Assembly (NCBI RefSeq): GCF_900142625.1
Contig: NZ_FRBN01000003.1
Coordinates: forward strand, 124,001 to 188,000
Direction of reading: 5' to 3'
Source: Roseovarius marisflavi
Lineage (GTDB): Bacteria > Pseudomonadota > Alphaproteobacteria > Rhodobacterales > Rhodobacteraceae
DNA: 64,000 nucleotides
Position numbers and translations under genes: made by a program. Shown piece after piece: positions 32,204 through 54,207 of this stretch (within the stretch, counting starts at the first letter, position 1; the number at the start of each line of letters is the position of its first letter). The notes under the pieces are model-generated. The model had not been told where the DNA came from. It saw nothing but the letters and a program-made list of their open reading frames with translations, and did no database searches.

Positions 32204-33376
32204 ATGCGTATAGGCGTGATCCTCAATCATTTCGAGCCGCACCAGGTGCCCCATGCAGCGCCCTATGGCTTTGCCCTGTCGCGGGTGCGACCGGATTGGA
32301 CGGTGGATATTTTGTGCTCTACCCGCGGCGAAATGGAGTTTGCGCAGGAAATTGCCGGGCGGTTTGATGCACAGACCGCCAACATACAGGCGTTGAAAGT
32401 GCCTCTGGTGTTTCGGATTGCGGATCCGCTGCTGCGCCAGTTCACCTTTGCGCGCAAGGTGGCGGTGTTGCAGGCCAACGTCGACCGCCTGTCACAGTAT
32501 GACGCGCTGATCATGCCTGAAATGACCTCTCTTGCGCTGCGCCGCTCGGCGAAGATGGCCGGGGTCAAAATGATCTTTACCGGCCACGGCGCGGGCGATC
32601 TCTATAGCAATCCCTTCGGCAATTTCGACAAGAGGGTGGAGACTTTTGATCTGGTTCTGTTGCAGGGCCGCCGCCTGGCCTGCGCCATGTGGGCCGAAGG
32701 GCGGCTAAAGGACACCAGCCATGCGATAATCGGCTATCCCAAGTATGAGGCCGTGCCGCAAACGCCCCTGCGCCTGTTTGATGATGACAAGCCGGTGGTC
32801 GTTTATAACCCGACGCAAAACCCGCGCGGCTCGTCCTGGCATCGCTGGGGTGAAGCGGTGCTGGACAGGCTGGCGGCGCGCGAGGATCTGAACGTGATCT
32901 TTGCCCCCCATGCCCTGTTGTTCAAGCGCAGCTGGACACGCGGCGCGCGCCTGCCCGGGCGGTTTCGCAATCACCCCCGGATCAAGGTTGATCTGGGCAG
33001 CCGCGCCTCCTCTGATATGACCTATCTGCGGGCCTCTGATCTTTATCTGGGGGATCAGTCCAGCCAGATCTATGAGTTCATCAACCGGCCAAGGCCCTGC
33101 GTCTTTCTCAACCCCGATGAGAATAATTGGCAGGGCAACCCGTCGTTCCGCTCTTGGACGTTCGGCCCGGTGGTTGAGGATGTCGCCGATCTCGACAGCG
33201 CGATTGATGCGGCGCTGACCGAGTTTGAGCGCTGGCGCCCGGCGCAACAGGCCGCATTGGACGACGATGCAATCGGACCGGGCGCGCCCTTTGCCGATGC
33301 GCCCGCCTCGGAGCGCGGCGCGCGGGCGATTGCCGAATATATGGAACAGGGCAGCCTTTCGAAAGACTGGGCATGA
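32204..33376 (+). CDS. CDP-glycerol glycerophosphotransferase-like glycosyltransferase
   Basis: 390 aa. Overall GT-B-like sequence: an N-terminal Rossmann part, then a C-terminal half similar to the TagB/TagF CDP-glycerol glycerophosphotransferase group. VVVYNPTQNPRGSSWHRWGE and LRASDLYLGDQSSQIYEF correspond to the conserved D-x-S-S...E phosphate-binding region. It could transfer glycerol phosphate or a sugar to a surface glycan. First gene of a plus-strand glycan cluster; ATGA overlap with the next gene. The start at 32204 was chosen because the family sequence begins there. Confidence 0.75.
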   Translation: MRIGVILNHFEPHQVPHAAPYGFALSRVRPDWTVDILCSTRGEMEFAQEIAGRFDAQTANIQALKVPLVFRIADPLLRQFTFARKVAVLQANVDRLSQYDALIMPEMTSLALRRSAKMAGVKMIFTGHGAGDLYSNPFGNFDKRVETFDLVLLQGRRLACAMWAEGRLKDTSHAIIGYPKYEAVPQTPLRLFDDDKPVVVYNPTQNPRGSSWHRWGEAVLDRLAAREDLNVIFAPHALLFKRSWTRGARLPGRFRNHPRIKVDLGSRASSDMTYLRASDLYLGDQSSQIYEFINRPRPCVFLNPDENNWQGNPSFRSWTFGPVVEDVADLDSAIDAALTEFERWRPAQQAALDDDAIGPGAPFADAPASERGARAIAEYMEQGSLSKDWA

Positions 33377-37461: not shown

Positions 37462-38394
37462 ATGGGTAAGGACCTCAAGGCATTCATGGCCCGTTATGTC
37501 TCGGGTTGGCGGTCGTCACGCCACATCGAGGCGCGCCTTCGCTTTCCCGGCATGAATTTTCACGAAGCGCTGACCCGCGTGACCTATAAGCGTATCTTCG
37601 GGGTCTGGCCCGACCTTGAAAACCCGCGCACCATCAGCGAAAAAATGTGCTGGCTGAAGGTCAACGACAAACGGCCGCAAAACGCGGTCATCACGGATAA
37701 ATACAGGTTGCGCGGCTATGCCGAGCAGAATGGGCTTGGGCACCTGATGAACGAGTTGCACGGGGTCTGGGACCGGGCCGATGACGTGGATTTTGGCGCG
37801 CTTCCGGATGCCTATGCGCTCAAGGTGACCAATGGCAGCGCCTGGAACGTGATCAAGGCCCCCGGTCAGGCGATCGACGAGGAGGCCACGCGCAAGCGGC
37901 TCGACCTCTGGATGAAAACCGACATGTCCGATCACAAGGGCGAGTGGTATTACGCCGCCTCTCCGGCGCGGATTATCGCCGAGCATTATCTGGACAACGG
38001 TGGCGGTGACATCCCCGACTATAAGCTGTTTGTGTTCAACGGCGAGACCCGCTTTATTCAATATTGCGAGACCCGCTATAGCGGTTTGCGCAGCATCTTC
38101 ATGAGCCCCCAGTGGGAGCCGATGCCCTTTACCTACGCCGTATTCGCGCCCTACGGCCCGCCCCCGCCGAGACCCGAGGCGCTGGACGAGATGATTGAAG
38201 CGGCAAAGACGCTGTCGCAGGGGTTTGCGCTGGTGCGGGCGGATTTCTACATCAACAAAGGTCGGCTGTTGCTGGGCGAGCTTTCCCTCAATCCGGTGGG
38301 TGGCTATACCGTTTTTAAACCCGACGAGTGGAACGAAAAAATCGGCGATTGGCTGGAGCTGCCGGACAAGGCGACGCTTACCGCCTCTTCCTAG
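37462..38394 (+). CDS. TupA-like ATP-grasp protein
   Basis: 310 aa. It matches the TupA-like ATP-grasp family (PF14305-type): PRTISEKMCWLKVNDKRPQ near residue 55, VTDKYRLRGY-like VITDKYRLRGYAEQNG, KVTNGSAWNVI (ATP loop), KLFVFNGETRFIQ, and a metal-site LGELSLNPVGGYTVF. These enzymes are thought to ligate an amino acid or amine to a sugar carboxylate in surface polysaccharides. RBS GGAAAGG precedes the ATG. Its TAG stop overlaps the stop of the opposite-strand gene through the palindrome CTAG. Confidence 0.85.
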   Translation: MGKDLKAFMARYVSGWRSSRHIEARLRFPGMNFHEALTRVTYKRIFGVWPDLENPRTISEKMCWLKVNDKRPQNAVITDKYRLRGYAEQNGLGHLMNELHGVWDRADDVDFGALPDAYALKVTNGSAWNVIKAPGQAIDEEATRKRLDLWMKTDMSDHKGEWYYAASPARIIAEHYLDNGGGDIPDYKLFVFNGETRFIQYCETRYSGLRSIFMSPQWEPMPFTYAVFAPYGPPPPRPEALDEMIEAAKTLSQGFALVRADFYINKGRLLLGELSLNPVGGYTVFKPDEWNEKIGDWLELPDKATLTASS

Positions 38395-39326
38395 CGGAAG
38401 GCTCCGGCGCGATACAGGCGCCAGGCCAGTTTTGGCGCGTGCAGGACCGGGTGGCGGCGTTCGGCCTCGCTGACGTCAAGTTTTACACCTGAGTGGCTGG
38501 CGACCTTTTCCAGAATGTAGTCCAGCCCCGCATCGAACGTTGTTGCGGCCTTGAGGACGCGCAGCGCGCCAAGTGGCTTGCCGATTATCCGGCGCAGCCC
38601 CCATTTGGCGGCGCAGGCCGCGCGGCGCAGCGCCCCGACATCCGGCAGATCCGGCGCGCCGTCCTTGCCCTGCGGCAAAAGGATCGCCGACAGGCGCGCA
38701 TAACGTTCGGGAAAGCGCGCAACGATCTGGGCCGCGCGCGGGCCGGGGTTTTCGGGGCGCAGCTCGGTGCGATAGCTTTCGCAAAGACCGCGCACCCAGA
38801 TGTCGCCGGGCTGTTGCGGTCCGCGCAAAAGCGGGGTGACCTGAGCCGCAAAATGCCGACAGGCATGCGCCAGCGTGTCAATCAGCCGGGCGCGCAACTC
38901 GGGGTTATCGGTGACAATGGTTGCGGGCTGTGTGAAGCGCGCCCAGAGCATCGATTCCAGCGACCGGCCGCTTGCCCGTCGCAGGAACGCGGCCTCGGAA
39001 ACCACCGCGTATTTGCTGCGCAGCCGGTTCCCGTCGGCGTCGGTGATCGCCATGAAATGCACGCTTGGCGGCAACAGCCAGGCCGCAAGACTGGCCAGCC
39101 CCCGGCCATGAACCGCAGGGTAGCTGTCAACGATCACATAGAAATCCAGCATTTTTTCGGCGGCCTCGCCCTCGCGCAGCGCCGAGCCGTAAAAGATCAG
39201 CGCCCGCACCGCCCCGCCGTGCCGGGCACGGATGGCCTCGGCCATGGCCTGTGCAGGTGCCGACAGCGGGGCCTGATCACCCTCGATCACCTCACGCAAT
39301 TGCGCGATCACCTCCGTCCCGCTCAT
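38391..39326 (-). CDS. Tam41-like nucleotidyltransferase (possible phosphatidate/ceramide-phosphate cytidylyltransferase)
   Basis: 311 aa. The sequence aligns by eye with Tam41, the mitochondrial CDP-diacylglycerol synthase. FYGSALREGEAAEKMLDFYV resembles its G-S...D-F-x3-V-D nucleotidyltransferase motif (G47, S48, D61, D67 with the same D-x5-D spacing). A KYAVVSEAAFL block and a SLESMLWARFTQPATIV block resemble Tam41 K-Y-G-V-I-S and L-Y-I-A-G-R-L-x-K-P. Such an enzyme would make a CDP-lipid from a lipid phosphate and CTP. It overlaps the upstream lipid kinase gene by 4 bp, so kinase and cytidylyltransferase are coupled. Lipid substrate is inferred only. Confidence 0.68.
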   Translation of the reverse strand: MSGTEVIAQLREVIEGDQAPLSAPAQAMAEAIRARHGGAVRALIFYGSALREGEAAEKMLDFYVIVDSYPAVHGRGLASLAAWLLPPSVHFMAITDADGNRLRSKYAVVSEAAFLRRASGRSLESMLWARFTQPATIVTDNPELRARLIDTLAHACRHFAAQVTPLLRGPQQPGDIWVRGLCESYRTELRPENPGPRAAQIVARFPERYARLSAILLPQGKDGAPDLPDVGALRRAACAAKWGLRRIIGKPLGALRVLKAATTFDAGLDYILEKVASHSGVKLDVSEAERRHPVLHAPKLAWRLYRAGAFR

Positions 39327-40288
39327 CGCAGGAACACCAGCGGTTCGGTTGTTGTGATATGCAGCTTGCCGTCCTCGGCGCAGGCCACCGGCTCGCCATC
39401 GATCACAATCGGGTCGTCGTGGATAAGGTCAAAGCGGTCGCTGCGATAGCTGGTCATGCCATGAGCGGCCAGGCGCGGGCCAGAGAGGTGCAGCAAAATC
39501 TTGGCAATCGCCCGGCGAAAACCCTTGATCGGCCAGGCGGCATGGGTCAGCGCAATTGATCCCGGCCCAGTGCCCCAAAAGGGTTTCAACCCAAGGCTGA
39601 GCCGGGGCAGGGAGGTCACCAGCGCAAGGGTATGCGGGCCGTCAATCTCTACACCCGCCCCGCGCACCGTCAGATGCGAAGCACGCAGGACCGGTCCGCC
39701 ATCAGTGTCGCGATATTTGCCCGGTGCCATCACGAACCGGACAATAGCGAGGATGATCGTGCGCAAGCCGCGCTGCACGTCGTCGTGAAACTCGCGCTGG
39801 GCAAAAAGCATCGCGCGCGCCAGCGATCCGGTGGACAGGACAAACCCGATTGCAGGGCAGGGCAGGGCGGCACTTTCGATGCGCAGCGCCCGGTGTGTTT
39901 CGCGCTCCGGCGGATCGACCTCATTGGCAAGGGCGGCGATGCGGCGGGTGATCTCGCCCGCGGTCTTGCCGCGAAAGCCAAAGCTGCGCGCCGCCAGATT
40001 GGTGCTGCCGCCTGGCAGGATGGCAAATTCGGGCGGCGAGGCAAAACCGGCCCCTGGCGCCAGACAGGCCGAGAGCACCGCCAACAGTGTGCCATCGCCG
40101 CCCTCGATAAATATCTTCTCGACGCCGTCGCGGGCCATTTGCCGCACAAAGCCATTCAGATCAGCGAAATCATCCAGCCGCAAAAAGCTGGCATGGGGCA
40201 GTTCAAGCGCTGCCGCCTCAAGCATGGCACCGCGCTTTTCAACGGCGTGGCTGCCGTGGTTGACGATAAGGCCGATGCGATGTGTCAT
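39323..40288 (-). CDS. Diacylglycerol/ceramide kinase-like lipid kinase
   Basis: 321 aa DAGK-catalytic-family protein. The nucleotide loop is IEGGDGTLLAVL (residues 61-72), the following motif ILPGGSTNLAARSF replaces the usual P-x-G-T-x-N-D-x-A, and a C-terminal DDPIVIDGEPV matches the family D-G-E motif. It would phosphorylate a lipid alcohol. In the context of ceramide-synthesis genes ceramide is a strong candidate, with diacylglycerol as alternative. ATGA overlaps with both lptG-like and Tam41-like genes. Confidence 0.82.
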   Translation of the reverse strand: MTHRIGLIVNHGSHAVEKRGAMLEAAALELPHASFLRLDDFADLNGFVRQMARDGVEKIFIEGGDGTLLAVLSACLAPGAGFASPPEFAILPGGSTNLAARSFGFRGKTAGEITRRIAALANEVDPPERETHRALRIESAALPCPAIGFVLSTGSLARAMLFAQREFHDDVQRGLRTIILAIVRFVMAPGKYRDTDGGPVLRASHLTVRGAGVEIDGPHTLALVTSLPRLSLGLKPFWGTGPGSIALTHAAWPIKGFRRAIAKILLHLSGPRLAAHGMTSYRSDRFDLIHDDPIVIDGEPVACAEDGKLHITTTEPLVFLR

Positions 40289-41340
40289 GCCGATGCCGTT
40301 CTATGATAAGAAAGCCAAAGACCTATCAGCATCAGCGTACCCACGGGCACCACCACTGCGATGATCGCACTCAGGCTACCATTCTCTGACAGGGTCTTGA
40401 ACACCCCATCCGTCACCATGAACACAAATCCCGCCGCGATACCGATCGCGAGCGAAAACTCGCCACCGTCGCGGCGCCCCAGATGCTGCATGATCGGCAC
40501 TGTCATCATCAAGAACCCGATGGCGATAAACGGCAGCGACAGCCGATTGAGAAACCACACAAAATAGGCATCCGACGGCAGGCTACCCGAACCGGTCATA
40601 TGCGACAGCCGATAAAGGTCGCTCAGGGCAAGATTGCGTGGTTCGGACAGCAAGAGTCGCAGGGTATGCGGCGTCTGCTCGCTGTGCCATATCGCGGGGG
40701 GGGCGACCTCGTTGCCGTCATAGCGGATCTGTTGCACGTTACTCAGCGCCCAGCCCGCGGGGATCGCCGTGGCGGACCCGGCCCTGGAAATCGCGGTGAC
40801 CTTGCCATTGTCGCCGCGCTCGAACAATGTCACATTGCTCAGGCTGCGGTCATTGTTGAGCGCGCCAACCTCGATCAGCAGGCGTCCATCGGCCAGCCAT
40901 AGCGCCTTCGGGGCCTGGCGGTTGTCATGCACCGCCTCGGGCCCGAGCCAATCTTCGAGCGCCCGAGTGGTCAGAGGGTTGATCTGATCAATCAGCACCG
41001 CCGAGGCGATTGTGGCAATCAGGACCGCCGGGATCAGGGCGCGCACCTGACCAAAGACCGAGATGCCCGCGCCGACAATCGCCACCAGCTCGTTGCGGCG
41101 GATCAGGCTGACATAAGTCAGCAGAAGCGCCATCAGCAGCGCAAAAATCATGATCCGGTCAAACAGGATCGGCATCCGCAGCGCCATATAGCGAAACTGA
41201 TCCGACAGGTCGGCATTCTCGGGCAGCAGATCGGCATTGCTCAGGGCGTCAAGCACACCAAGCAGGGCCACCAGCCCAAAGACGGTGAGCAAAAACCGTT
41301 GCAGAAACATCACGGCTAGATATCGGTTAAGATGGCTCAT
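40285..41340 (-). CDS. LptG-like YjgP/YjgQ-family export permease
   Basis: 351 aa. It has the LptF/LptG layout: three N-terminal helices (to about residue 125), a periplasmic beta-jellyroll domain (about 130-255) and three C-terminal helices. RRNELVAIVGAGIS matches the cytoplasmic coupling helix of LptG. It lies with an LptF-like partner (7 bp upstream) and with LptA/LptB-like genes in the same cluster, so I infer a second Lpt-type machine, perhaps for sphingolipid rather than LPS. Whether this is the cell's only lptG cannot be told from the window. Confidence 0.85.
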   Translation of the reverse strand: MSHLNRYLAVMFLQRFLLTVFGLVALLGVLDALSNADLLPENADLSDQFRYMALRMPILFDRIMIFALLMALLLTYVSLIRRNELVAIVGAGISVFGQVRALIPAVLIATIASAVLIDQINPLTTRALEDWLGPEAVHDNRQAPKALWLADGRLLIEVGALNNDRSLSNVTLFERGDNGKVTAISRAGSATAIPAGWALSNVQQIRYDGNEVAPPAIWHSEQTPHTLRLLLSEPRNLALSDLYRLSHMTGSGSLPSDAYFVWFLNRLSLPFIAIGFLMMTVPIMQHLGRRDGGEFSLAIGIAAGFVFMVTDGVFKTLSENGSLSAIIAVVVPVGTLMLIGLWLSYHRTASA

Positions 41341-41347
41341 TCAGGGG

Positions 41348-42520
41348 CTATGCCGTTGTTTCCGGGGGCGCCGACGGGGCGGCGGCTTTGGGTTTTACCC
41401 GCCATAAAGCGGGAAAGGCGGATCGTCCACTGGCGGTACGCCAGAAGGTGTAAATTGCCAGCACGGCAACCAGGGCCACAACCGGCCATGTGCCCGCCCA
41501 GGGCGGAACGACCCCACGCTGGGCTAGCGACAGGCCGAATTCCAGCAGTTTCTGCACCACCACCAGCAGCAGTATCCCGACCGCCAGCCCGCCAGACCGC
41601 GCAACCCGGCCCAGTTGCAGCCCGAGCACCACACTGATCAGAGGGAGGGCGATCAAAAGCGCCGCGCGGCTGAGCCGGTCATGCATGTCTGCCTGGGCGG
41701 CGGTTGGATCGATGGTTTTGTCGTCGGTCAGATAGGATTTGCTCATCAGCTCTTTGAGGGTCAGCTCGCGTTGATCATCGCCGCGGTCGCGGTAGCCCTC
41801 GATCGGCGTCGGCATCTTCCAGGTCACTTTGGCGGTATTAAGCCGGTTGCCCTGCGATGTGGTGATCTCTGCTGGCAGATCGCCGATCATCGCATCCTGC
41901 AAATTGATCGTCCATGTGCCATCGTCGCTTTCAGTCAGAACGCCGGTGTGGCCGGTGATAAACTTGTAATCACCGCCCTTGCTGGAGTCGATAATGAACG
42001 TTTCGCCCAGTTTTCGACCGGCAAAATTGACCTTCGAGGTCCAGACCACCTTATCGTCGAACTGAACGAATTTGCGTTCCTTGAAGGCGGTCACGATGGA
42101 GCTTTGCTTTAGCTCATGCACAATCTGGCGGTAGTTGTAGCGCGACACCGGCTGTAAAAACCCCGAGATCAAAATCGAGACCAGCGCCAGCACCACCGCC
42201 AGCCCCAGATAGGGCCGCAAGATGCGGCGCAGCGACACGCCAGTGGACATCAGCGCGACAATCTCGCCCGAGCGGCTTAGCCGTTCAATGCTGATGATGG
42301 TGGCGATCAACAGCGCCCCCGGCAGCGCCATGCCAAGATAATGTGGCAACAAATTGCCGATCATACGCGCTGCCGACTGCAACGCGTCATCCGAGCCGGC
42401 AATCAGATCGGTGATCCGGATCAACCGTTCCAGCATCAAAATCGCCAGTGCCACAGCAATTAAAGCGAGCAGGAGGCCAATGTTATTACGCAAAAGGTAA
42501 CGGTCGAGCTTGAAAAACAT
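41348..42520 (-). CDS. LptF-like YjgP/YjgQ-family export permease
   Basis: 390 aa partner of the LptG-like protein. Three N-terminal helices, a jellyroll domain (about 130-270) and three C-terminal helices. The coupling motif is LSRSGEIVALMSTGVSLRRI, and the C-terminal helices begin HDRLSRAALLIALPLISVVL, both typical of LptF. It is the first gene of a four-gene minus-strand operon (lptF-like, lptG-like, lipid kinase, Tam41-like), divergent from the DUF2141-ceramide synthase operon. Confidence 0.85.
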   Translation of the reverse strand: MFFKLDRYLLRNNIGLLLALIAVALAILMLERLIRITDLIAGSDDALQSAARMIGNLLPHYLGMALPGALLIATIISIERLSRSGEIVALMSTGVSLRRILRPYLGLAVVLALVSILISGFLQPVSRYNYRQIVHELKQSSIVTAFKERKFVQFDDKVVWTSKVNFAGRKLGETFIIDSSKGGDYKFITGHTGVLTESDDGTWTINLQDAMIGDLPAEITTSQGNRLNTAKVTWKMPTPIEGYRDRGDDQRELTLKELMSKSYLTDDKTIDPTAAQADMHDRLSRAALLIALPLISVVLGLQLGRVARSGGLAVGILLLVVVQKLLEFGLSLAQRGVVPPWAGTWPVVALVAVLAIYTFWRTASGRSAFPALWRVKPKAAAPSAPPETTA

Positions 42521-42619: not shown

Positions 42620-42668
42620 ACCGCCAGCGGCTGACTGTAACCAGGTCGTGACCCTAAGGAGAGTGCCA

Positions 42669-43166
42669 ATGTTTATCAAACGCAGCCTTTACACCCTGGC
42701 CCTGTCTGGCGCCCTTGCGCTTTCGGTCTCTGGCGTGTCCGCGCAGGCCAAGGCGCTGGATATTCGCCCGCATGAGGCGGCAGCGGTCTGTGGCGCGCGA
42801 TCACCGCAGGTCAAGGTGATCGTCGAAAACGTCACGTCTCAGGGCATTCTGACGGTCGAACTCTACCGCCCGAGCAAGCGTGATTTCCTTAAAAAGGCGT
42901 CGCGGGTGCATCGCATCCGTGTGCCCGCCCAAAATGGCCCGCAGACCGTGTGCTTTGACGTCAAAAAGGCCGGTGCCTATGCCGTCGCCGCCTATCAGGA
43001 TCTGGATGCCGACAGGGATCTTGATCAGAAGTGGAACATGATGCCGGCCGAACCTTTTGCGCTATCGAGCAAGAAGAAGCTGGCGTTTGCGATGCCGGTG
43101 TTTGATGATGCGGCCTTTCAGGTGCCCAGTGAAGGTGCCGCCATTAGGATTACACTGCAACGATGA
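42669..43166 (+). CDS. Secreted DUF2141-family protein
   Basis: 165 aa. A signal peptide (about 1-27, ending VSAQA) precedes a small beta-sandwich with the DUF2141 pattern: VICFDVKKAGAY-like VCFDVKKAGAYAVAAYQD, then DLDADRDLDQKWNMMPAEPF, a G-x-Y-A-x3-Y-x-D...N-x-x-L-D...P-x-E-P-F arrangement. The function of the family is unknown to me. It is the first gene of the plus-strand operon and overlaps the ceramide-synthase-like gene by 4 bp, so it probably serves the lipid in the periplasm. RBS AAGGAG supports the ATG at 42669. Confidence 0.85.
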   Translation: MFIKRSLYTLALSGALALSVSGVSAQAKALDIRPHEAAAVCGARSPQVKVIVENVTSQGILTVELYRPSKRDFLKKASRVHRIRVPAQNGPQTVCFDVKKAGAYAVAAYQDLDADRDLDQKWNMMPAEPFALSSKKKLAFAMPVFDDAAFQVPSEGAAIRITLQR

Positions 43167-44338
43167 CCCAAAGCGCGTCCCCCTTGTCCGCAGCCCCCGA
43201 TATAACGGTCAGCGAAGTGACCTCGCGTGCGGACAGGGCGGCCTTCGTTGACTTGCCCTACCGCGCCTATCGCGATGTTGCGCATTGGCGCGCGCCGCTG
43301 CGGTTTGAGCGCAAGGCGCAGCTTGAGCCGAAGCATAATCCGGGGCTGGCCAGAATTGACCATACGCTGATGCTGGCGCGCCGCGATGGTCAGGTGGTCG
43401 GGCGCATCGCCGCCATCGTTAACAGGGGTCATCTGGAGCTTTACAGCGATGCCACCGGGCATTTCGGCTTTCTCGACACGCTCAGCGCCGACGCCGAGGT
43501 TGCGGCTGCCCTGATGGCGGCCGCAGAAGATTGGCTGCGCGCGCGCGCAATGACCCGCATTGCCGGGCCGTTCAGCTTTTCGATCAACGAAGAATCCGGC
43601 CTGCTTGTCGAGGGCTTTGATACGCCGCCGATGATGATGATGCCGCATGGCCGACCCGATTATGCCCCCACGCTTGAGAGGCTGGGATTTGCCAAGGCAA
43701 TGGACCTTTACGCATTTTTGCATGAATTCGGCGAAGAGTATCACATCCCGCCCACGGTCAAGCGCTGGAAAGACGCCTTTGACCGCGACCCGGCGCTTAG
43801 CATCCGACCGCTCAACATGAAGAACTTCAAGGCCGACATCCGGATGGTCATGGAAATATTCAACGACGCCTGGTCGCAAAATTGGGGGTTTGTCCCGTTC
43901 AGCGCCGATCAGATCACCGTGATGGCGCAGGAACTGAAACCGTTGCTGCGCTCTGATTCCCTCTGGATCGCGATGATTGACGGCGAACCGGCAGGGTTTA
44001 CCTTTCTGTTCCCCGATCTCAACGAAATCGTCGATGGCCTTGACGGAAAAATCCTGCCGTTTGGCTGGGCGCAACTGCTGTATCGGCTGAAAATACGCGG
44101 TCCCAAACGGGCCCGGCTGCCGCTGGCGGGATTGCGGCGCAAGTTTCACAAGACCCGCCGGGGCATGGTGGCCATGGCGGGCAGTTTCGAGGCCGCCTTT
44201 GCCGCGCAGCATGCACTCGGCGTGCGCGAGGTCGAGGCATCCTGGATTCTTGAGAGCAACAGCGATCTGCTCAATCTGGTCGATCTTTACGAGATGAAGC
44301 GCTATAAAACCTATCGTGTTTACGAGAAGGCCCTATGA
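43163..44338 (+). CDS. GNAT-family N-acyltransferase, probable bacterial ceramide synthase
   Basis: 391 aa, the size of the GNAT-superfamily proteins identified as bacterial ceramide synthase (the CC_1154 type of Caulobacter). It has an N-terminal GNAT-like part with the acyl-donor strand VVGRIAAIVNRGHLEL and a C-terminal part with SEHLYRMEI-like sequence. Blocks FSFSINEESGLLVEGF and WSQNWGFVPFSADQI are typical of this group. It would N-acylate the long-chain base or its keto form using an acyl donor, giving (keto)ceramide. Operon: overlaps DUF2141 and NTP-transferase genes by 4 bp each. Confidence 0.8.
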   Translation: MTQSASPLSAAPDITVSEVTSRADRAAFVDLPYRAYRDVAHWRAPLRFERKAQLEPKHNPGLARIDHTLMLARRDGQVVGRIAAIVNRGHLELYSDATGHFGFLDTLSADAEVAAALMAAAEDWLRARAMTRIAGPFSFSINEESGLLVEGFDTPPMMMMPHGRPDYAPTLERLGFAKAMDLYAFLHEFGEEYHIPPTVKRWKDAFDRDPALSIRPLNMKNFKADIRMVMEIFNDAWSQNWGFVPFSADQITVMAQELKPLLRSDSLWIAMIDGEPAGFTFLFPDLNEIVDGLDGKILPFGWAQLLYRLKIRGPKRARLPLAGLRRKFHKTRRGMVAMAGSFEAAFAAQHALGVREVEASWILESNSDLLNLVDLYEMKRYKTYRVYEKAL

Positions 44339-45129
44339 CCGCCAGCCCCGACCAATCCCGCCCCGTTCAGGTCCTGGTGCTCGCAGGCGCGCGCGCCGCC
44401 GGTGATCCGCTCTGTGACGCCGAAGGTGTCGCCAGCAAGGCGGTGATCGACATTGTCGGCCAGCCGATGCTGTCGCGGGTCTTGCGCGCCCTTGGCGCCA
44501 GTCGCGCCGATGCCCCCGCCTGGGTTCTCGGGCTTGAGGGCGCAGCACTTGAGGCGGCCGCCGATGGCATCCCCTGTCAGCCGCTGGCGTCCCAGGGGCG
44601 AGGCCCGGCCTCAAGCCTTATCCGCGCTCTGGAGGGGCCGATTTCGACGCCGCTTCTGGTGACAACCTGCGATCATGCGCTGCTGACGCCCGCGATGGTG
44701 GATAGCTTTCTGGCGAAATCCATCGCCAGCGATGCCGACATGACCGTGGGTTTTGCCGAACGCAGCGTCATCGAGGCCGAGTATCCGGAAACCAAGCGCA
44801 CCTATCTGCGCCTTGGCGGGGCGGAGCTGTCGGGCTGCAACCTGTTCTATCTCGCCAGCCCTGCGGCGCTCAAGGTGATCCGCTTTTGGCAAAGCGCCGA
44901 ACAGGACCGCAAGAAACCCTGGCGCATCGCCTGGCGTTTTGGCCCGCTCACGGCCCTGCGCATCCTGTTGATGCGCTCGGGGCATGAGGCGGCGTTTGCG
45001 CTGTTGTCACGCCAGCTTGGCGTGCGCGTCGCGCCGGTTCTGTTGCCCTTTGCCGAGGCCGCGATTGATGTCGACAAGCCCGGCGACCTGGTGCTTGTGC
45101 GCGAGATTTTGACCGCACGCGACGCCTGA
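44335..45129 (+). CDS. MobA-like NTP-transferase
   Basis: 264 aa. A nucleotidyltransferase with MobA-type fold: VLVLAGARAAGDPLC replaces the usual LAGG-x-G-x-R-M-G loop, with Lys in VASKAVIDIVGQPML, and TTCDHALLTPAMV as the D-x-x motif for metal binding. It could make an activated head group (for example CDP-glycerol-, CDP-inositol- or CDP-glycerate-like) for the CDP-alcohol phosphotransferase encoded just downstream. The substrate is not known. Overlaps the ceramide-synthase-like gene by 4 bp. Confidence 0.78.
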   Translation: MTASPDQSRPVQVLVLAGARAAGDPLCDAEGVASKAVIDIVGQPMLSRVLRALGASRADAPAWVLGLEGAALEAAADGIPCQPLASQGRGPASSLIRALEGPISTPLLVTTCDHALLTPAMVDSFLAKSIASDADMTVGFAERSVIEAEYPETKRTYLRLGGAELSGCNLFYLASPAALKVIRFWQSAEQDRKKPWRIAWRFGPLTALRILLMRSGHEAAFALLSRQLGVRVAPVLLPFAEAAIDVDKPGDLVLVREILTARDA

Positions 45130-45133
45130 GGCT

Positions 45134-45583
45134 TTACGCAGGCCAGCCCGCTTGCAGCGCCGCGCGCACCCGCGCCGCCGCATCCGGCGCCTCGGGGGCA
45201 TGGCCAAGGTCCGGCACCGCAGGCCAGCCCGGATCGGCAAAGGTGATGCCGTCAAAGGCAACCTCTTTGTCATAGCGCGGCAGAACGTGAAAATGTACAT
45301 GCGGATCGACCATCATCAACATCAGGTAATTGATCTTTTGATTGCCAAAGCGCGCCACCGCGGCCTCAATGTCGTGGGTGATCTGCGCCAGTTCGCCGTG
45401 CGCGCCGCCCGGCAGATCGCCAAAGGCCTGCGCCGGTCCATGCGCCAGCAGGATCATCGCACCAAGCGTCGCCTGCTGTGGTCGCGCCTGCACGCTCCAC
45501 CAGCGATAATCCCGGATCAGCGTGTCCTTGCCGCCGAAACGGGAAAAAGTGGCGTTTCGTTCTGGCATTTCGGCGCTTTCCAT
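45134..45583 (-). CDS. HIT-family hydrolase, opposite strand
   Basis: 149 aa histidine-triad protein. The HIT motif is H95-V-H97-F-H99-V-L near residue 95 (HVHFHVLPR), preceded by NYLMLMMVDP. HIT proteins are nucleotide hydrolases or transferases (AMP- or GMP-linked substrates). The gene lies on the minus strand between the NTP-transferase and CDP-alcohol phosphotransferase genes, breaking their run. It ends 4 bp from the NTP-transferase stop. The start at 45583 has AAGGGG 9-10 bp upstream. A longer minus-strand frame continues far upstream but is a shadow. Confidence 0.85.
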   Translation of the reverse strand: MESAEMPERNATFSRFGGKDTLIRDYRWWSVQARPQQATLGAMILLAHGPAQAFGDLPGGAHGELAQITHDIEAAVARFGNQKINYLMLMMVDPHVHFHVLPRYDKEVAFDGITFADPGWPAVPDLGHAPEAPDAAARVRAALQAGWPA

Positions 45584-45664
45584 GGTTATTCCCCTTGTCA
45601 TTCGTGGCTGGTTTCGGGCGGCACCAAGACCTGCCCGCAAAACGATGATAAATGGAATGACCGG

Positions 45665-46798
45665 ATGACAAAAGACACAAGCCTGCGCCTGATCGGCGAA
45701 ATGCCTGCACGGCTCTGGGGGCTTGAGCTGCATGAATGGCAGCGCCGCGCCTGGCAAAAGGCCGGTGCGGCCTCGGCCGATGACCCGGCGGCGCGGCTTT
45801 TGGTTGGCGTCGAATGGGTTCTGTCGCCGGCCTTGCAGCGCGCGTTTTTGGCCACACCGGGCGCGGCCCTTGTTGTGCCCGACCGCAACGGCGGCGCGCC
45901 ACGTCTGGCCGCGTTGCACCTGTCCGAAGGCGCGACGCCTGCGGATTTCGAAGCGTTGATCGGACAGGGCGACCCCGATTTGGACGCCCTGCGCGCGGCG
46001 GGTTTTACCACCGGCGATGCCGACGATTTCGCCGGGGCCTATGACGAGGTGCTGCGCAAACGCGAGGCGCCTTATGCGCTCTCGATGCGCAGTGAGACCC
46101 CGCGCAGCATCGAAAAGCGCCTGTTCAAAGGGTCCTACAAGGGTGTCACCGATCTGGTGACCAAATACGCCTGGCCCTGGCCTGCCTTTCACGCCACCCG
46201 CGCCGCCGCAAACCTGCATATTTCGCCCAACACCGTGACCACGGTCAGCCTTGTGATGGTCTTTGCCGCGCTTTGGTTCTTTTGGGAGGGGCACTGGGCG
46301 CTTGGCATCATTTCGGCCTGGATCATGACCTTTCTGGATACGGTCGATGGCAAGCTGGCGCGCACCACCATGAGCTATTCCAAATGGGGTGACCTTTATG
46401 ATCACCTGATCGACCTTATCCATCCGCCATTCTGGTATTGGGCAATATGGGTCGGGCTGCAACAGGCCGCCGACGGCCCGAGCGCGTTCATGCTGGATGC
46501 TTCGCTGGCGGTGCTGGTGATCGGCTATGTGCTCAACCGGGTGCAGGAGGGGGCCTTTATCGGTCTTTTTGGCTTTCACATCCATGTCTGGGAGCGGATC
46601 GATTCCATCGCCCGCGAAATCACCGCGCGACGCAATCCCAACATGCTGATCTTCATGCTGTTTGTCATGCTCGGCGCGCCGGGCTGGGGCTTTGTCGCCA
46701 TGGGCGTCTGGACGCTGTTTTGGCTGATCTTTCATCAGGTCCGGCTGTTTCAGGCCTGGCGGCAACCCGCCAAGCCGACCTCCTGGATGGCGGGCTGA
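45665..46798 (+). CDS. CDP-alcohol phosphotransferase with a degenerate N-terminal NTP-transferase-like domain
   Basis: 377 aa. Residues of about 175-360 form the membrane CDP-alcohol phosphatidyltransferase domain. All catalytic residues are present: D225, D228-G-x2-A232-R233-x8-G242-x3-D246-x3-D250. Residues 1-150 resemble an NTP-transferase fold (ARLWGLELHEWQRRAWQKAG) but lack the nucleotide loop and so are probably structural. It would move a phospho-alcohol from a CDP-linked donor to an acceptor alcohol. In this context: ceramide with CDP-head group, or head group with CDP-ceramide. Compare bifunctional inositol-phosphate cytidylyltransferase/DIPP synthase for the layout. Confidence 0.88.
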   Translation: MTKDTSLRLIGEMPARLWGLELHEWQRRAWQKAGAASADDPAARLLVGVEWVLSPALQRAFLATPGAALVVPDRNGGAPRLAALHLSEGATPADFEALIGQGDPDLDALRAAGFTTGDADDFAGAYDEVLRKREAPYALSMRSETPRSIEKRLFKGSYKGVTDLVTKYAWPWPAFHATRAAANLHISPNTVTTVSLVMVFAALWFFWEGHWALGIISAWIMTFLDTVDGKLARTTMSYSKWGDLYDHLIDLIHPPFWYWAIWVGLQQAADGPSAFMLDASLAVLVIGYVLNRVQEGAFIGLFGFHIHVWERIDSIAREITARRNPNMLIFMLFVMLGAPGWGFVAMGVWTLFWLIFHQVRLFQAWRQPAKPTSWMAG

Positions 46799-46804
46799 TC
46801 CGGG

Positions 46805-47494
46805 ATGGCGGGTACGGCACTCTTTGATCTCGATCGCACGATCACGCGCGCACCGACCTGGACGTGGTTTCTGATCCATGTGAACGGTCGGCGGCCCCGG
46901 TTTGCCGGTCAATTCGCCCTGATCGCCCTGCGCATGATCGCCTATAAACTGCGCCTTGTGCCGCGCACGTCGATCAAGGCTGCCGGGCTGCGCAGCCTGT
47001 CCGGGCATAGCCGTGCCGAGTTGCAGGCCAAGGCCGATACATTTGTCGCAGGCGTGCTTGCCAGCGGTCTGCGCCCCGGCGCCGAGGCCGCTATCAAGGC
47101 GCACAAGGCGCGTGGCGACCGGCTGGTTCTGGTCACGGCTGCTGTCGATGTGGTGGCCGAGCCGCTGGCGCGCGCGCTCGGGTTTGACGATGTGATCTGC
47201 ACGCGCCTTATCTGGCCTGCGGGTGGTCGCGGGCCGGTGCTGGACGGCGAAAATTGCTATGGTGCGGAAAAACTGCGCCGCATCGCCGATCTTCAGGCCG
47301 AGCGCCCCTTCAGCCAGCCGACCTATGCCTATAGCGATCACGTCTCGGACCTTGAATTTTTGCGCGAGGCGGATCACGGTATCGCGGTAAACCCATCCAA
47401 GCGCCTGCGGCGCGCCGCATCGGAACATGGTCTTGAAATCGTCGATTTCGAAGCCTCTATTTCTTATTCTTACAGACTGGAGCCATCCCAATGA
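46805..47494 (+). CDS. HAD-family (subfamily IB) phosphatase
   Basis: 229 aa. HAD motif I D8-L-D10-R-T is followed by helical cap sequence; motif II LVTAAVDVVAEPLA; motif III Lys in GAEKLRRI; motif IV YSDHVSDLEFL. This is the phosphoserine-phosphatase-like IB group. In head-group synthesis it could remove a phosphate from a phospho-lipid intermediate (as in PG-phosphate to PG). It starts 6 bp after the CDP-alcohol phosphotransferase and overlaps the next gene by 4 bp. Confidence 0.82.
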   Translation: MAGTALFDLDRTITRAPTWTWFLIHVNGRRPRFAGQFALIALRMIAYKLRLVPRTSIKAAGLRSLSGHSRAELQAKADTFVAGVLASGLRPGAEAAIKAHKARGDRLVLVTAAVDVVAEPLARALGFDDVICTRLIWPAGGRGPVLDGENCYGAEKLRRIADLQAERPFSQPTYAYSDHVSDLEFLREADHGIAVNPSKRLRRAASEHGLEIVDFEASISYSYRLEPSQ

Positions 47495-48219
47495 AAGCCA
47501 TCATCCTAAGCGCCGGTCGCGGGTCTCGTCTTCTGCCTCTGACGGAAACACGCCCCAAGTGCCTTCTGGCCATTGGCGATACCACCATCCTTGGCCGTCA
47601 GTTGGACACGCTTGAGGCCGGCGGGGTGACCGAGGTTGTGGTGGTTACCGGCTTTATGGCGGCTCTGGTCGAGGAAGAGGTCGCCAAACGCAGCGGTCCG
47701 ATGACGGTCAGCACCTTCTATAACCCATTCTACCAGATCGCCGATAACCTCGCGAGCTGCTGGATGGTGCGCGACTTTATGGATAGTGACTTTCTGCTGA
47801 TCAATGGCGACACCCTGTTTGAGGCGCAGTTGCTGAAAGGCGTTCTCTCAAGCCCGCATGTCCTGCCGGTTCAGGTGACGATTGACCGCAAGGATGCCTA
47901 TGATTCCGACGACATGAAGGTGCAGCTTGACGGCACCCGCCTGGCCGCCATTGGCAAGGCGCTGCCTGCCGAAAAGGCCGATGCCGAATCCATCGGCATG
48001 CTGCGCTTTACCGGCGAGGGGCCGGCCATCTACCGCGCCAAGCTTGAACAGATGATGCGCACGCCCGAAGGCGTGTCCAACTGGTTTCTCAAGGCGATTG
48101 ACGCGATTGCCAATACCACCGGTCAGGTCGGTACGTTTTCGATCGAAGGCAAGCGCTGGAACGAGGTTGACACCGTTGAGGATTATGAGGGCATCGACGC
48201 GCATTTCCGACAGTCCTGA
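47491..48219 (+). CDS. Sugar-phosphate/choline-phosphate-type nucleotidyltransferase
   Basis: 242 aa with the GT-A nucleotidyltransferase loop LSAGRGSRLLPLTETRPKCL (residues 6-25) and a metal site LLINGDTLF. The YNPFYQIADNLASCWMVRDF stretch is typical of LicC-like/phosphocholine or sugar-1-phosphate cytidylyltransferases. It could supply a CDP- or other NDP-activated head group. It overlaps the HAD gene by 4 bp. Second NTP-transferase of the cluster (see 44335); this one keeps the complete catalytic loop. Confidence 0.85.
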   Translation: MKAIILSAGRGSRLLPLTETRPKCLLAIGDTTILGRQLDTLEAGGVTEVVVVTGFMAALVEEEVAKRSGPMTVSTFYNPFYQIADNLASCWMVRDFMDSDFLLINGDTLFEAQLLKGVLSSPHVLPVQVTIDRKDAYDSDDMKVQLDGTRLAAIGKALPAEKADAESIGMLRFTGEGPAIYRAKLEQMMRTPEGVSNWFLKAIDAIANTTGQVGTFSIEGKRWNEVDTVEDYEGIDAHFRQS

Positions 48220-48333: not shown

Positions 48334-48972
48334 ATGGCATCTACACTGGCCCGGGCGCGCGGCGCTGCATGTCTTTTGGGCGTGGCCCTTGTCGGCCTGA
48401 TCTTTTCCGCCCCTGCTGTGCAGGCGCAAGATCAGGCGATCACGGTCGATCCGGCCGCCGAAGAGGCCACCGCGCCGCGCGGCACCAACCTGTCGTTTGG
48501 CGGGATCAAGGTGTCGGCGGATTTGCCGTTGCAGGTGATATCCGACGAATTGGAAATGGATCAGAATGTCAACACCGCCGTCTTTGTGGGCAATGTCAAT
48601 GTCGAGCAGGGCGATCTGACACTCAAGTCAGCGCGGGTGCTGGTCGAATACGGCATGATTGAGGGCGCATCCAGGCCCAATCAGATCATACGCCTGACCG
48701 CCAGCGGTGGCGTCACGATGACAAGCCCGAGCGAGACCGCCGAAGCCGCCCAGGCGGTCTATACGATCGCCACGCGCGAAATCTTGATGACCGGTGACGT
48801 GCTTGTCACGCAGGGGCTGAACACGGTGTCGGGTGAGCGCATGGTGGTCTATCTTGATGAGGGAACGGCCGTGATGCAGGGCAGGGTCCGCACCTTCATC
48901 AACAATAATGCCCCCGAAAATCCAAAGCCGACCGTAGCTGCTCCCGGACCGGCCAAGGAGGCCGGTCAATGA
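48334..48972 (+). CDS. LptA-like (OstA-domain) periplasmic bridge protein
   Basis: 212 aa. A signal peptide (about 1-33, ending APAVQA) is followed by an OstA/LptA beta-jellyroll: LPLQVISDELEMDQNVNTAV, FVGNVNVEQGDLTLKSARVL and later VLVTQGLNTVSGERMVVYLD. LptA proteins form filaments that carry lipid across the periplasm from LptBFGC to LptD. The C-terminal 20 residues are Pro/Ala-rich. Overlaps lptB-like gene by 4 bp. Given its place among sphingolipid genes it may bridge a sphingolipid rather than LPS. Confidence 0.85.
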   Translation: MASTLARARGAACLLGVALVGLIFSAPAVQAQDQAITVDPAAEEATAPRGTNLSFGGIKVSADLPLQVISDELEMDQNVNTAVFVGNVNVEQGDLTLKSARVLVEYGMIEGASRPNQIIRLTASGGVTMTSPSETAEAAQAVYTIATREILMTGDVLVTQGLNTVSGERMVVYLDEGTAVMQGRVRTFINNNAPENPKPTVAAPGPAKEAGQ

Positions 48973-49727
48973 CGCCAAAAGAATTCGGCGGCACACAGGG
49001 ATCGGACGGTTTGCGGGTGATCAGCCTGCGCAAGAGTTTCAAGCGTCGGATGGTGATCCGCGATCTCAGCCTTGAGTTGCACCGCGGCGAGGTCGTGGCG
49101 CTGCTCGGTCCGAACGGCTGTGGCAAGTCAACCTGCTTTTACATGATCGCCGGTCTGCTTGCGCCCGACGGCGGACAGGTGAAAATCGATGGAACAGACC
49201 TGATCGGGCTGCCGATGGATCAACGGGCACGGCTTGGGCTGGTCTATCTGCCTCAGGATGTGTCGATCTTTCGCGGGCTCAATGTCGAGGACAATATCCT
49301 GACCATCCTCGAAATCATTCAGCCCGATGCAAAGGCGCGGCGCGAAAAGCTTGAGGAATTGCTGTCGGATCTGTCCATCGCCCATCTGCGCCATGCGCCC
49401 GCCCTGTCATTGTCGGGCGGCGAGCGGCGCCGGGTCGAGATTGCCCGTTGTCTGGCCGCCGATCCGAAGTACCTGTTGCTGGACGAACCCTTTGCCGGGG
49501 TCGATCCGATTGCCGTCGGTGAAATACGCGCCATCGTTGCAGATCTGAAGCAACGCGGCATCGGCGTGCTGATCACCGATCACAATGTGCGCGAAACCCT
49601 CGAAATCGTTGATCGCGCCTATATCCTGCATGATGGCGGCGTTCTGATGAGTGGCACCCCGGATGAGGTCGTGCGCGACGAAAATGTGCGCCGGGTTTAT
49701 CTTGGCGAGGATTTTAAGATTTTCTGA
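48969..49727 (+). CDS. LptB-like ABC ATPase
   Basis: 252 aa. Walker A is GPNGCGKST, the signature ALSLSGGERRRVEIA, Walker B YLLLDEPFAGVDPIAV, and switch-His ITDHNVRETLEI; the whole pattern matches LptB closely, including LPQDVSIFRGLNVEDNI. It would energise the LptF/LptG-like permease pair encoded at 40285-42520. No LptC-like gene is found beside it, where lptC-lptA-lptB order is usual for LPS export. Confidence 0.9.
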   Translation: MTPKEFGGTQGSDGLRVISLRKSFKRRMVIRDLSLELHRGEVVALLGPNGCGKSTCFYMIAGLLAPDGGQVKIDGTDLIGLPMDQRARLGLVYLPQDVSIFRGLNVEDNILTILEIIQPDAKARREKLEELLSDLSIAHLRHAPALSLSGGERRRVEIARCLAADPKYLLLDEPFAGVDPIAVGEIRAIVADLKQRGIGVLITDHNVRETLEIVDRAYILHDGGVLMSGTPDEVVRDENVRRVYLGEDFKIF

Positions 49728-49797: not shown

Positions 49798-49885
49798 CGG
49801 CCCGGCCTAAAGGATTTACCAAAAATAAAAGCAACCTGCCGCATACTCCAGCGGCGCTATGGTTCAGTTCAGAGGAAATACGCCG

Positions 49886-50698
49886 ATGACCAGCGTCAAC
49901 GACCCGCAACCCGTCAAGCCCAAGACGCTAAACCGGCCGGTCCGTAAATTCGTCAAGCGCCGGGGCAAAAAGCTGATGCGGTGGGCGGCCAAGTTTCAAA
50001 GCAAGCAAAGTATCGTTCCCGACACGCCATTTATCGACAATAGCCATTTCCCCTTTCTGTCCGAGTTCGAGGACAAATGGGAGGTGATGCGCGACGAGGT
50101 TCTTGAGATCCTCAAGAATCGCGAAGATATTCCGGGCTTTGAAGAGGTCTCGCCGGATCAGTACCGTATCGCGCAGGCCCGCCAGTGGAAAACCTTTGTC
50201 CTTTATGGATTTGGTCAGCAATTGCCCAAGAATTGCAGCAAGGCCCCGGTCACGACCGAGGTTCTCAGCCGGGTGCCGTATGTGCAGACTGCGTGGTTTT
50301 CGATTCTGGCGCCGGGGTATCATATCCCCGCCCATACCGGTGTGACCAAGGGGATCGTGCGCGCCCATCTGGGCCTGATCATCCCCAAGGACCGCGAAAA
50401 ATGCCGCATTCGGGTGCAGGATCAGATCATGGCATGGGAGACCGGCAAGGTCTTTGCCTTTGATGATACCTTTGAGCATGAGGTCTGGAATGACACCGAC
50501 GAAGAGCGGGTGATTTTGTTGTTTGATTTCGATCGGCCAATGCGGTGGCGTGGTCGGATGCTTAACAATCTGATGCTCTGGCTGATGAAATTTACGGCGT
50601 TCTATCAGGAGCCCAAGAAGAACCTCGCCGATTTCGAGGATCGCTTCGAGGCCGCCGCGCGCCGGGCGGATGCCAATCTTGAAAAACTGAGCGACTAG
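49886..50698 (+). CDS. Aspartyl/asparaginyl beta-hydroxylase-family (LpxO-like) lipid hydroxylase
   Basis: 270 aa Fe(II)/2-oxoglutarate dioxygenase. The 2-His iron site of the family is seen in GYHIPAHTG and FAFDDTFEHEVWN, with the 2-oxoglutarate-binding Arg in GIVRAHLGL and the RVILLFDFDRP block. Relatives hydroxylate acyl chains of lipid A (LpxO) or ornithine lipids (OlsE/OlsC). Among sphingolipid genes it probably hydroxylates a ceramide acyl chain or long-chain base. The start at 49886 has AGAGGA 9 bp upstream; an in-frame ATG 27 bp earlier is less supported. Confidence 0.85.
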   Translation: MTSVNDPQPVKPKTLNRPVRKFVKRRGKKLMRWAAKFQSKQSIVPDTPFIDNSHFPFLSEFEDKWEVMRDEVLEILKNREDIPGFEEVSPDQYRIAQARQWKTFVLYGFGQQLPKNCSKAPVTTEVLSRVPYVQTAWFSILAPGYHIPAHTGVTKGIVRAHLGLIIPKDREKCRIRVQDQIMAWETGKVFAFDDTFEHEVWNDTDEERVILLFDFDRPMRWRGRMLNNLMLWLMKFTAFYQEPKKNLADFEDRFEAAARRADANLEKLSD

Positions 50699-53962: not shown

Positions 53963-54207
53963 ACCAGATGACCGAAACCATGTTCGACCAGATTTGTGGC
54001 ATCCTGCGGGCCCATACCAAGGTCGAGACCAAGATCGAGCCCGAAACCCTGATCGGGGCTGATCTTGCCATCGATTCCGTTGAGATGTTTGATCTCGTGA
54101 TGGAGATCGAAGAGCAATATGATATCAGCTTTCCGCTGGAAGAAGCTTCTGATATTGATACCGTCCAATCCCTGGTCACAGCGATCGAGCGCATTACAAA
54201 TGTTTGA
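53959..54207 (+). CDS. Dedicated acyl carrier protein
   Basis: 82 aa acidic ACP with the phosphopantetheine site GADLAIDSVEMFDLVMEIEE, Ser40 being the carrier serine. It lies between the reductase and Spt, overlapping both (4 and 8 bp), which suggests it carries the fatty acyl chain for serine condensation (AcpR role). Gene size and position equal those of the sphingolipid ACP in Caulobacter. Confidence 0.9.
   Translation: MNQMTETMFDQICGILRAHTKVETKIEPETLIGADLAIDSVEMFDLVMEIEEQYDISFPLEEASDIDTVQSLVTAIERITNV

Follow-up and report, generated by a model that had tools for sequence, protein, structure and literature searches.

In a 64,000-nucleotide stretch of Roseovarius marisflavi DNA, hereafter the window, a lipid kinase gene of the diacylglycerol kinase (DAGK) type (39323-40288, minus strand, 321 residues) and a gene for a distant relative of the nucleotidyltransferase Tam41 (38391-39326, minus strand, 311 residues) form two open frames that share the four bases ATGA. 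We identify the pair as the CpgB and CpgC homologues of the ceramide-diphosphoglycerate (CPG2) cluster known from Caulobacter, and we propose, with moderate confidence, that CpgC is a cytidine triphosphate (CTP):ceramide-1-phosphate cytidylyltransferase. A first-pass annotation of this DNA had reported both frames, their overlap, and the ceramide genes and cytidine diphosphate (CDP)-alcohol phosphotransferase nearby, all of which we find as described. It had also suggested that the pair makes ceramide 1-phosphate and then CDP-ceramide. The first product agrees with the activity of Caulobacter CpgB (PMC10331486), while CDP-ceramide is likely, judging from homology of the Tam41 type.

In the proposed route, CpgB would phosphorylate ceramide to ceramide 1-phosphate, a reaction demonstrated in Caulobacter and assigned here by homology. 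CpgC would then transfer cytidine monophosphate from CTP onto ceramide 1-phosphate, with CDP-ceramide and pyrophosphate as products, and a CDP-alcohol phosphotransferase would move phosphoceramide onto glycerate or phosphoglycerate to yield ceramide phosphoglycerate (CPG). Separately, CpgD would produce CDP-glycerate, as it does in Caulobacter; CpgA would probably add the second phosphoglycerate, as the genetics suggest, and transport of the product towards the outer membrane would probably fall to LptF2/LptG2, as proposed in print. The first-pass annotation had set such a route apart from schemes in which the head group is carried by CDP. That contrast does not hold, since the same cluster contains a homologue of the CDP-glycerate-making CpgD (PMC12275187), and the CDP-ceramide route looks like a hybrid of the two.

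The region CC_1168-CC_1152 of C. crescentus is its ceramide and phosphosphingolipid region (PMC11324152). We compared the window with locus G419, from the order of Hyphomonas, whose gene at the CpgC place stood in for the C. crescentus sequence itself. The order in G419 starts with a flippase gene, aasR, cerR, acpR and spt; cpgC, cpgB and cpgA follow on the other strand; then come a metallophosphoesterase gene, a HIT-like gene, lptF2, lptG2, cerS and a nucleoside triphosphate (NTP) transferase gene, with cpgD on the other strand. The published numbering of CC_1166 to CC_1152, insofar as the text states it, is consistent with this order (PMC11324152). Window and G419 genes are 33% (cpgC), 30% (cpgB), 51% (cpgD) and 50% (spt) identical. 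We take the order within CC_1165-CC_1163 to be aasR, cerR, acpR.

Like Caulobacter CpgC (CCNA_01219/CC_1161), the window homologue is encoded directly after the ceramide kinase gene, and the surrounding cluster has biosynthetic and transport genes in common with that of Caulobacter. Like CpgB (CCNA_01218), the window kinase has a DAGK domain and a GGDG motif and is encoded directly before cpgC. The DAGK-like character noted in the first pass is borne out by Pfam (PF00781 DAGK_cat, 5.1e-12), and by eye the translation contains EGGDGT and lacks CxxxCxxC. These are features of the CpgB-type ceramide kinase, which has a DAGK/LCB5-type domain with GGDG and without the eukaryotic CxxxCxxC (PMC10331486). 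In contrast to the Caulobacter-type cluster, lptG2 immediately precedes cpgB in the window, spt (54119) is within the cluster but 15 kb from cpgC, a HAD phosphatase gene takes the place of the CC_1158 metallophosphoesterase, and there are extra genes, among them the TagF-like 32204-33376; cpgC identity is low, and the kinase, at 30% to the G419 gene, is assigned its ceramide kinase role by homology. In Caulobacterales loci, cpgB-cpgC are often convergent with spt.

CpgC as a remote relative of Tam41

The likeness to Tam41 that the first pass had noticed is real but remote. The Tam41/TAMM41 profile PF09139 does not detect the window protein at E<=1, but does detect 12 of 80 family members at that threshold (best 2.9e-8). 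These 80 named loci are the best of 575 relatives in a scan with 10 sequences from a 29-sequence alignment and are skewed towards the nearest kin of the window, a scope that holds for every count on them below. When ten family members were rescanned, six matched, five of them above the cut-off. A PF09139 search of the R. marisflavi genome gave no match, as did searches of all 14 control genomes, so this result alone carries little weight. A profile of the 80 family sequences matches the solved S. pombe Tam41 (6ig2/6ig4) with an E-value of 5e-5; an earlier profile search of the PDB with 29 sequences did not find Tam41.

Predicted structure agrees with the family profile. In a Foldseek search with the AlphaFold model of the window CpgC (mean predicted local distance difference test score 92.6), ranks 1 to 5 are all Tam41 chains. 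With VIA-align, the model superposes on 7ecd, a Firmicutes Tam41 in complex with CTP and Mg, at Z 18.3 over 232 residues (model residues 19-264; root-mean-square deviation, rmsd, 3.5), and on the S. pombe enzyme at Z 15.6 (6ig4, rmsd 4.2) and Z 14.9 (6ig2), the next protein after Tam41 being an aminoglycoside nucleotidyltransferase at Z 6.7. The model also has the Tam41 arrangement of a nucleotidyltransferase domain followed by a second domain.

Residues Y46, G47, D61, K105, R130, Y185, E188, R190 and E192 are present in all 80 rows of the larger family alignment; in the 29-row alignment Y185 is found in 27 rows and the others in all 29. One row had been dropped from each (L045, a partial sequence, from the larger and L022, with an unsure start, from the smaller). 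The motifs YGS, a single Asp, KY, R-F-x-Q-P and Y-x-x-E-x-R-x-E show little or no variation and align with Tam41. The single acid, D61, is mostly followed by Phe or Leu and then Tyr, and there is no DxD motif; Tam41 likewise has one of the usual three acids (PMC11646218). The C-terminal 80 residues are basic (+10 in the window protein; family median +12, lowest +6), a tail that resembles the positively charged amphipathic helix of Tam41 (PMC7018664), and no stretch of CpgC is hydrophobic enough for a clear membrane span. We conclude that CpgC is probably a Tam41-type nucleotidyltransferase associated peripherally with the membrane, sharing with Tam41/TAMM41 the two domains, the single catalytic acid, a K-R-Y-acid-R-E pattern and the basic tail. 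Unlike Tam41, it is linked to ceramide genes, and its last 47 residues extend past the 7ecd alignment. The CDP-diacylglycerol synthase that bacteria usually have, CdsA (PF01148), performs the equivalent reaction on a glycerolipid and belongs to a different family by profile; the window CpgC has no PF01148 match in Pfam, and the PF01148 protein of this genome is encoded elsewhere.

The proposed reaction of CpgC

The company that cpgC keeps points to ceramide. The kinase gene lies directly upstream on the same strand in 70 of the 79 usable named loci (80 fetched, one partial excluded), and in 40 of these 70 pairs the genes share a 4-bp start/stop overlap. Because the kinase adjoins in so many loci, the pairing exceeds chance. 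These counts come from the named set only, since several named and G-handle loci are identical contigs; in a mixed set of 139 loci the kinase is adjacent in 126 and there is none in 13. By blastp no kinase was detected in nine of the 79 loci, in three of which the frame begins at most about 260 bases from a contig end. Loci with cpgC and no adjacent kinase by blastp include L066, L074, L010, L088, L091, L092 and L095; cpgC directly follows, for example, cerS (L066, L074) or cpgA (L010).

A search of 289 genomes of the class with the window protein detected a CpgC relative in 34 of them, and the ceramide synthase CerS was found in 41. CerS is present in 33 of the 34 CpgC genomes versus 8 of the 255 without CpgC (Fisher p 1e-34, which is descriptive and not a true probability, as the genomes are related). 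The sole CpgC genome that lacks CerS is an 82% complete draft, and among the eight CerS-only genomes one has a weak CerS match (6e-12). A CdsA-family protein occurs in all 34 CpgC genomes. We count the kinase pairing and these two co-occurrences, together with the conserved Tam41 signature and the basic tail, in favor of CpgC as a CTP:ceramide-1-phosphate cytidylyltransferase.

The genetics of Caulobacter bears on the same question. CpgB is a demonstrated ceramide kinase with ceramide 1-phosphate as product, and its deletion abolishes ceramide 1-phosphate and leaves phosphatidate unchanged (PMC10331486). A CC_1161 mutant is without CPG and CPG2 and has moderately increased ceramide, and of the head-group genes just CC_1160 and CC_1161 proved necessary for CPG (PMC11324152); according to a preprint of May 2026, CPG formation needs CpgC, which acts by an 'unidentified mechanism' (PMC13228409). 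CPG is still made when cpgD or CC_1153 is lost (PMC12275187, PMC11324152), and CpgD makes CDP-glycerate (PMC12275187). Since CPG persists without CpgD, the first glycerate does not come from the CDP-glycerate of CpgD; activation is then probably on the ceramide side, as a Tam41-type enzyme would do. The presence of CdsA in every CpgC genome means that CDP-diacylglycerol supply does not account for CpgC. On these two grounds we hold the conversion of CTP and ceramide 1-phosphate to CDP-ceramide to be the most likely reaction.

Several points weigh against this reading. Homology gives the reaction type and not the lipid; described Tam41 enzymes use phosphatidate (PMC11646218, PMC7018664), and in vitro diacylglycerol and ceramide serve CpgB about equally well as substrates (PMC10331486). 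The window CpgC is 12-15% identical to solved Tam41 and has no match in NCBIfam and none in Pfam at E<=1. At Q133, all 80 and all 29 CpgC rows have Gln where both solved Tam41 sequences have the Lys of GRFQKP, and the activity may therefore be altered. We found no enzyme assay of CpgC in the literature, no report of ceramide 1-phosphate accumulation in a cpgC mutant in the literature passages, and no transferase that consumes CDP-ceramide among the PF01066 proteins of the R. marisflavi genome and the recurrent neighbors.

Two alternatives keep the ceramide substrate, and we regard both as unlikely. CpgC could use guanosine, adenosine or uridine triphosphate on ceramide 1-phosphate and make an activated ceramide that is not CDP-ceramide. 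In its open form this idea is already in print, as the Conclusions of a 2024 paper suggested that CC_1161 makes a nucleoside diphosphate (NDP)-activated ceramide and left the nucleotide open (PMC11324152); the lack of a Pfam match for the window protein and the invariant Q133 would be compatible with it. However, the closest solved structure is the CTP-Mg complex, and CDP-alcohol phosphotransferases, the usual consumers, are present. To a similarly small degree we credit direct attachment, in which CpgC would add glycerate or phosphoglycerate to ceramide 1-phosphate in one step. This is the earliest published model, that of Zik et al. as reported in PMC11324152, and it accords with the requirement for CC_1160 and CC_1161 alone among the head-group genes, but the authors of PMC11324152 termed such a step energetically not very favorable, and the Tam41-type fold and signature indicate a nucleotidyltransferase.

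A second CDP-diacylglycerol synthase, one that uses phosphatidate to supply the cluster and is no ceramide enzyme, is less probable still. The substrate of described Tam41 enzymes and the phosphatidate made by CpgB in vitro speak for it, but each CpgC genome already has a CdsA-family protein, CpgC tracks the ceramide synthase, the CC_1161 mutant loses both CPG and CPG2, and phosphatidate does not change on cpgB deletion. Equally improbable is a catalytically changed or non-enzymatic CpgC that binds ceramide 1-phosphate and presents it to another enzyme, as the low identity to Tam41, the Lys-to-Gln change and a shortened segment around S. pombe Tam41 F240 (the Phe changed in 6ig2, F240A) could suggest, since a dead enzyme would not need a nucleotidyltransferase signature that is invariant in 80 rows.

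Returning to CDP-ceramide formation, the gene pair has been described before in Caulobacter and the idea of an NDP-activated ceramide is not new, while the reaction given here is predicted from sequence and a structural model. The first-pass annotation knew of no described CDP-ceramide enzyme, and a full-text search of 5.39 million papers for 'CDP-ceramide' and related spellings likewise gave no match (subscription papers mostly lie outside this search), although ceramide activation as such had been suggested before. Nor did Roseovarius together with sphingolipid and ceramide match any full text. As far as the literature search shows, a CDP-activated sphingolipid would, if true, be a new class of lipid intermediate. 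Conversion of ceramide 1-phosphate to ceramide phosphoglycerate by CpgC is a question posed in print (PMC13228409), and the end product CPG2 aids the survival of Caulobacter without lipopolysaccharide (PMC12275187). The family profile, the fold match and the conserved residues make the CDP-ceramide idea directly testable with purified protein.

Candidate consumers of CDP-ceramide

The first pass had cast the nearby CDP-alcohol phosphotransferase, CpgA, in the final step. CpgA is probably not the consumer of CDP-ceramide, because it is dispensable for CPG in Caulobacter (PMC12275187, PMC11324152) and because 14 of the 34 CpgC genomes, one of them the 82% complete draft, are without a strong match (20 strong, with E below 1e-60; 3 weak; 11 none). 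The R. marisflavi genome has four PF01066 proteins, namely PgsA (TIGR00560, 132 bits), a PssA-like protein, a Pcs-like protein and CpgA. The PssA-like gene lies just downstream of a putative Psd (decarboxylase) gene, and the PssA-like and Pcs-like names are assigned from context. With CpgA-like genes set aside, no further transferase was seen by eye among the 30 most recurrent neighbor groups.

The PF01066 proteins of two Hyphomonas and two Parvularcula genomes comprise only one PgsA-type protein and one CpgA-like frame, the latter judged by place and frame length; the Hyphomonas PgsA-type proteins score 104 and 100 bits, just below the TIGR00560 cut-off of 109. Aquibaculum has a PgsA along with a PgsA-like protein that falls short of the cut-off, and genomes G158 and G167 have PgsA and PssA only. 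TIGR00560 matches 26 of 26 genomes, 25 above the cut-off, and PgsA is the only PF01066 type common to all genomes typed. This is a weak pointer to PgsA as the consumer, weak because PgsA is a housekeeping enzyme. We tentatively entertain a wider proposal, which we think rather doubtful as a whole, that CpgC represents the first CTP:ceramide-1-phosphate cytidylyltransferase, with CDP-ceramide as a true branch-point lipid consumed by a housekeeping PgsA-type (or PssA-type) transferase and not by CpgA. If true, bacterial sphingolipid head groups would be made along a route fully parallel to that through CDP-diacylglycerol, with the last enzyme shared.

Two CpgA-like phosphotransferases lie near cpgB-cpgC in loci L075, L081, L082, L084, L087, L102 and L109, which belong to Dongia, Rhodospirillaceae, an unclassified proteobacterium and Nitrospirales. 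Three CpgA-like frames share the cpgC contig in G302 (Dongia) and in G037, G165 and G263, the latter three from one genus. The extra frames may include the CPG-forming transferase.

The cluster, its variants and its origin

The window contains all five ceramide genes. The features of the cluster are as follows.

38391-39326, minus: CpgC homologue, Tam41-type nucleotidyltransferase, proposed CTP:ceramide-1-phosphate cytidylyltransferase, 311 residues (family profile, fold, signature)
39323-40288, minus: CpgB homologue, ceramide kinase by homology, 321 residues (PF00781 5.1e-12, ATGA overlap with cpgC, gene order)
40285-41340, minus: LptG-like permease (LptG2), its end overlapping the cpgB start by 4 bp (PF03739 6.8e-48)
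41348-42520, minus: LptF-like permease (LptF2; PF03739 2.5e-59)
42648-43166, plus: DUF2141 protein, which recurs in named loci of the cluster (PF09912 5e-22)
43163-44338, plus: GNAT-type ceramide synthase CerS, CC_1154 counterpart (PF00583 1.2e-4, above cut-off; cluster place)
44335-45129, plus: MobA-like NTP transferase, CC_1153 counterpart by place (PF12804 7.4e-13)
45134-45568, minus: HIT-like protein, CC_1157 counterpart by place (motif HVHFHVLPRY; no Pfam match at 0.01)
45665-46798, plus: CpgA homologue, CDP-alcohol phosphotransferase with N-terminal extension, 377 residues (PF01066 2.3e-10 on the longer open reading frame (ORF) 45152-46798)
46805-47494, plus: HAD-IB phosphatase, possibly filling the role of the CC_1158 metallophosphoesterase (PF12710 4.1e-33)
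47491-48219, plus: CpgD homologue, nucleotidyltransferase (phosphoglycerate cytidylyltransferase in Caulobacter; PF00483 1.6e-11; 51% identical to its positional counterpart in G419)
51214-52968, plus: AasR-type fatty acyl-AMP ligase (NF006624 1.9e-197)
52961-53962, plus: CerR-type epimerase/reductase (PF01370 8.9e-24)
53959-54207, plus: acyl carrier protein AcpR (PF00550 2.8e-7)
54119-55402, plus: serine palmitoyltransferase Spt (NF047599 7.2e-172, above cut-off; start as in the listed ORF, the true start may be further in)

As the kinase start overlaps the end of the LptG-type gene by 4 bases and the LptF gene ends 7 bases before the LptG start, lptF2-lptG2-cpgB-cpgC look like a single transcription unit from their spacing. 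Genes for an LptA-like protein (PF03968) and an LptB-like ABC ATPase adjoin the cluster at 48334-49727, a possible dedicated Lpt-type export set together with LptF/LptG (40285-42520). Between these transport genes and the ceramide genes sits a gene for a lipid acyl hydroxylase (49859-50698) that resembles OlsC (3.4e-67) and LpxO (2.3e-37), both below the respective cut-offs, and is a candidate for hydroxylation of the ceramide acyl chain. A gene that looks fatty-acid-hydroxylase-like from its sequence (L067 5034-5780 and relatives) recurs in 18 of the 80 loci; the same blastp search found no relative of it in the window.

The HAD-IB phosphatase gene lies between cpgA and cpgD. Among the 80 named loci, some of them short, 30 have the HAD gene, 21 have the metallophosphoesterase gene and none has both, and one phosphatase has likely been replaced by the other, which would explain why Hyphomonas 'lacks CC_1158'. 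We considered that either phosphatase might act before CPG, a placement opposed by the lipids of the CC_1158 mutant, in which CPG is slightly increased and CPG2 slightly decreased (PMC11324152).

The HIT-like gene is hidden within a long antisense ORF between two cluster genes, and its product, which we assume to be HIT-like from the motif, has relatives in 28 of the 80 loci and at the CC_1157 place of G419. It may act on a nucleotide intermediate; CC_1157 was termed 'probably unrelated' in PMC11324152. Upstream of a flippase gene, 32204-33376 matches PF04464 (CDP-glycerol:poly(glycerophosphate) glycerophosphotransferase, TagF-like) at 2.7e-5, above the cut-off, with relatives in seven named loci, some of them Hyphomonas. 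This protein could extend a phosphoglycerate head group.

In the family of the window, CpgC occurs in 4 of 198 genomes including its own, one of them with a stop in the frame. In a tree of the 80 CpgC rows, midpoint-rooted for drawing, the window protein joins Roseovarius lutimaris (100/93), and the rows from Roseovarius, Maritimibacter and relatives (7 rows, 100/97) are sister to Hyphomonas (5 rows, 100/87). Both groups lie among Henriciella rows, with one weak fork (91/60), and one uncultured Roseovarius row falls outside the pair. Transfer of the cluster from Hyphomonadaceae is the simplest reading of this tree.

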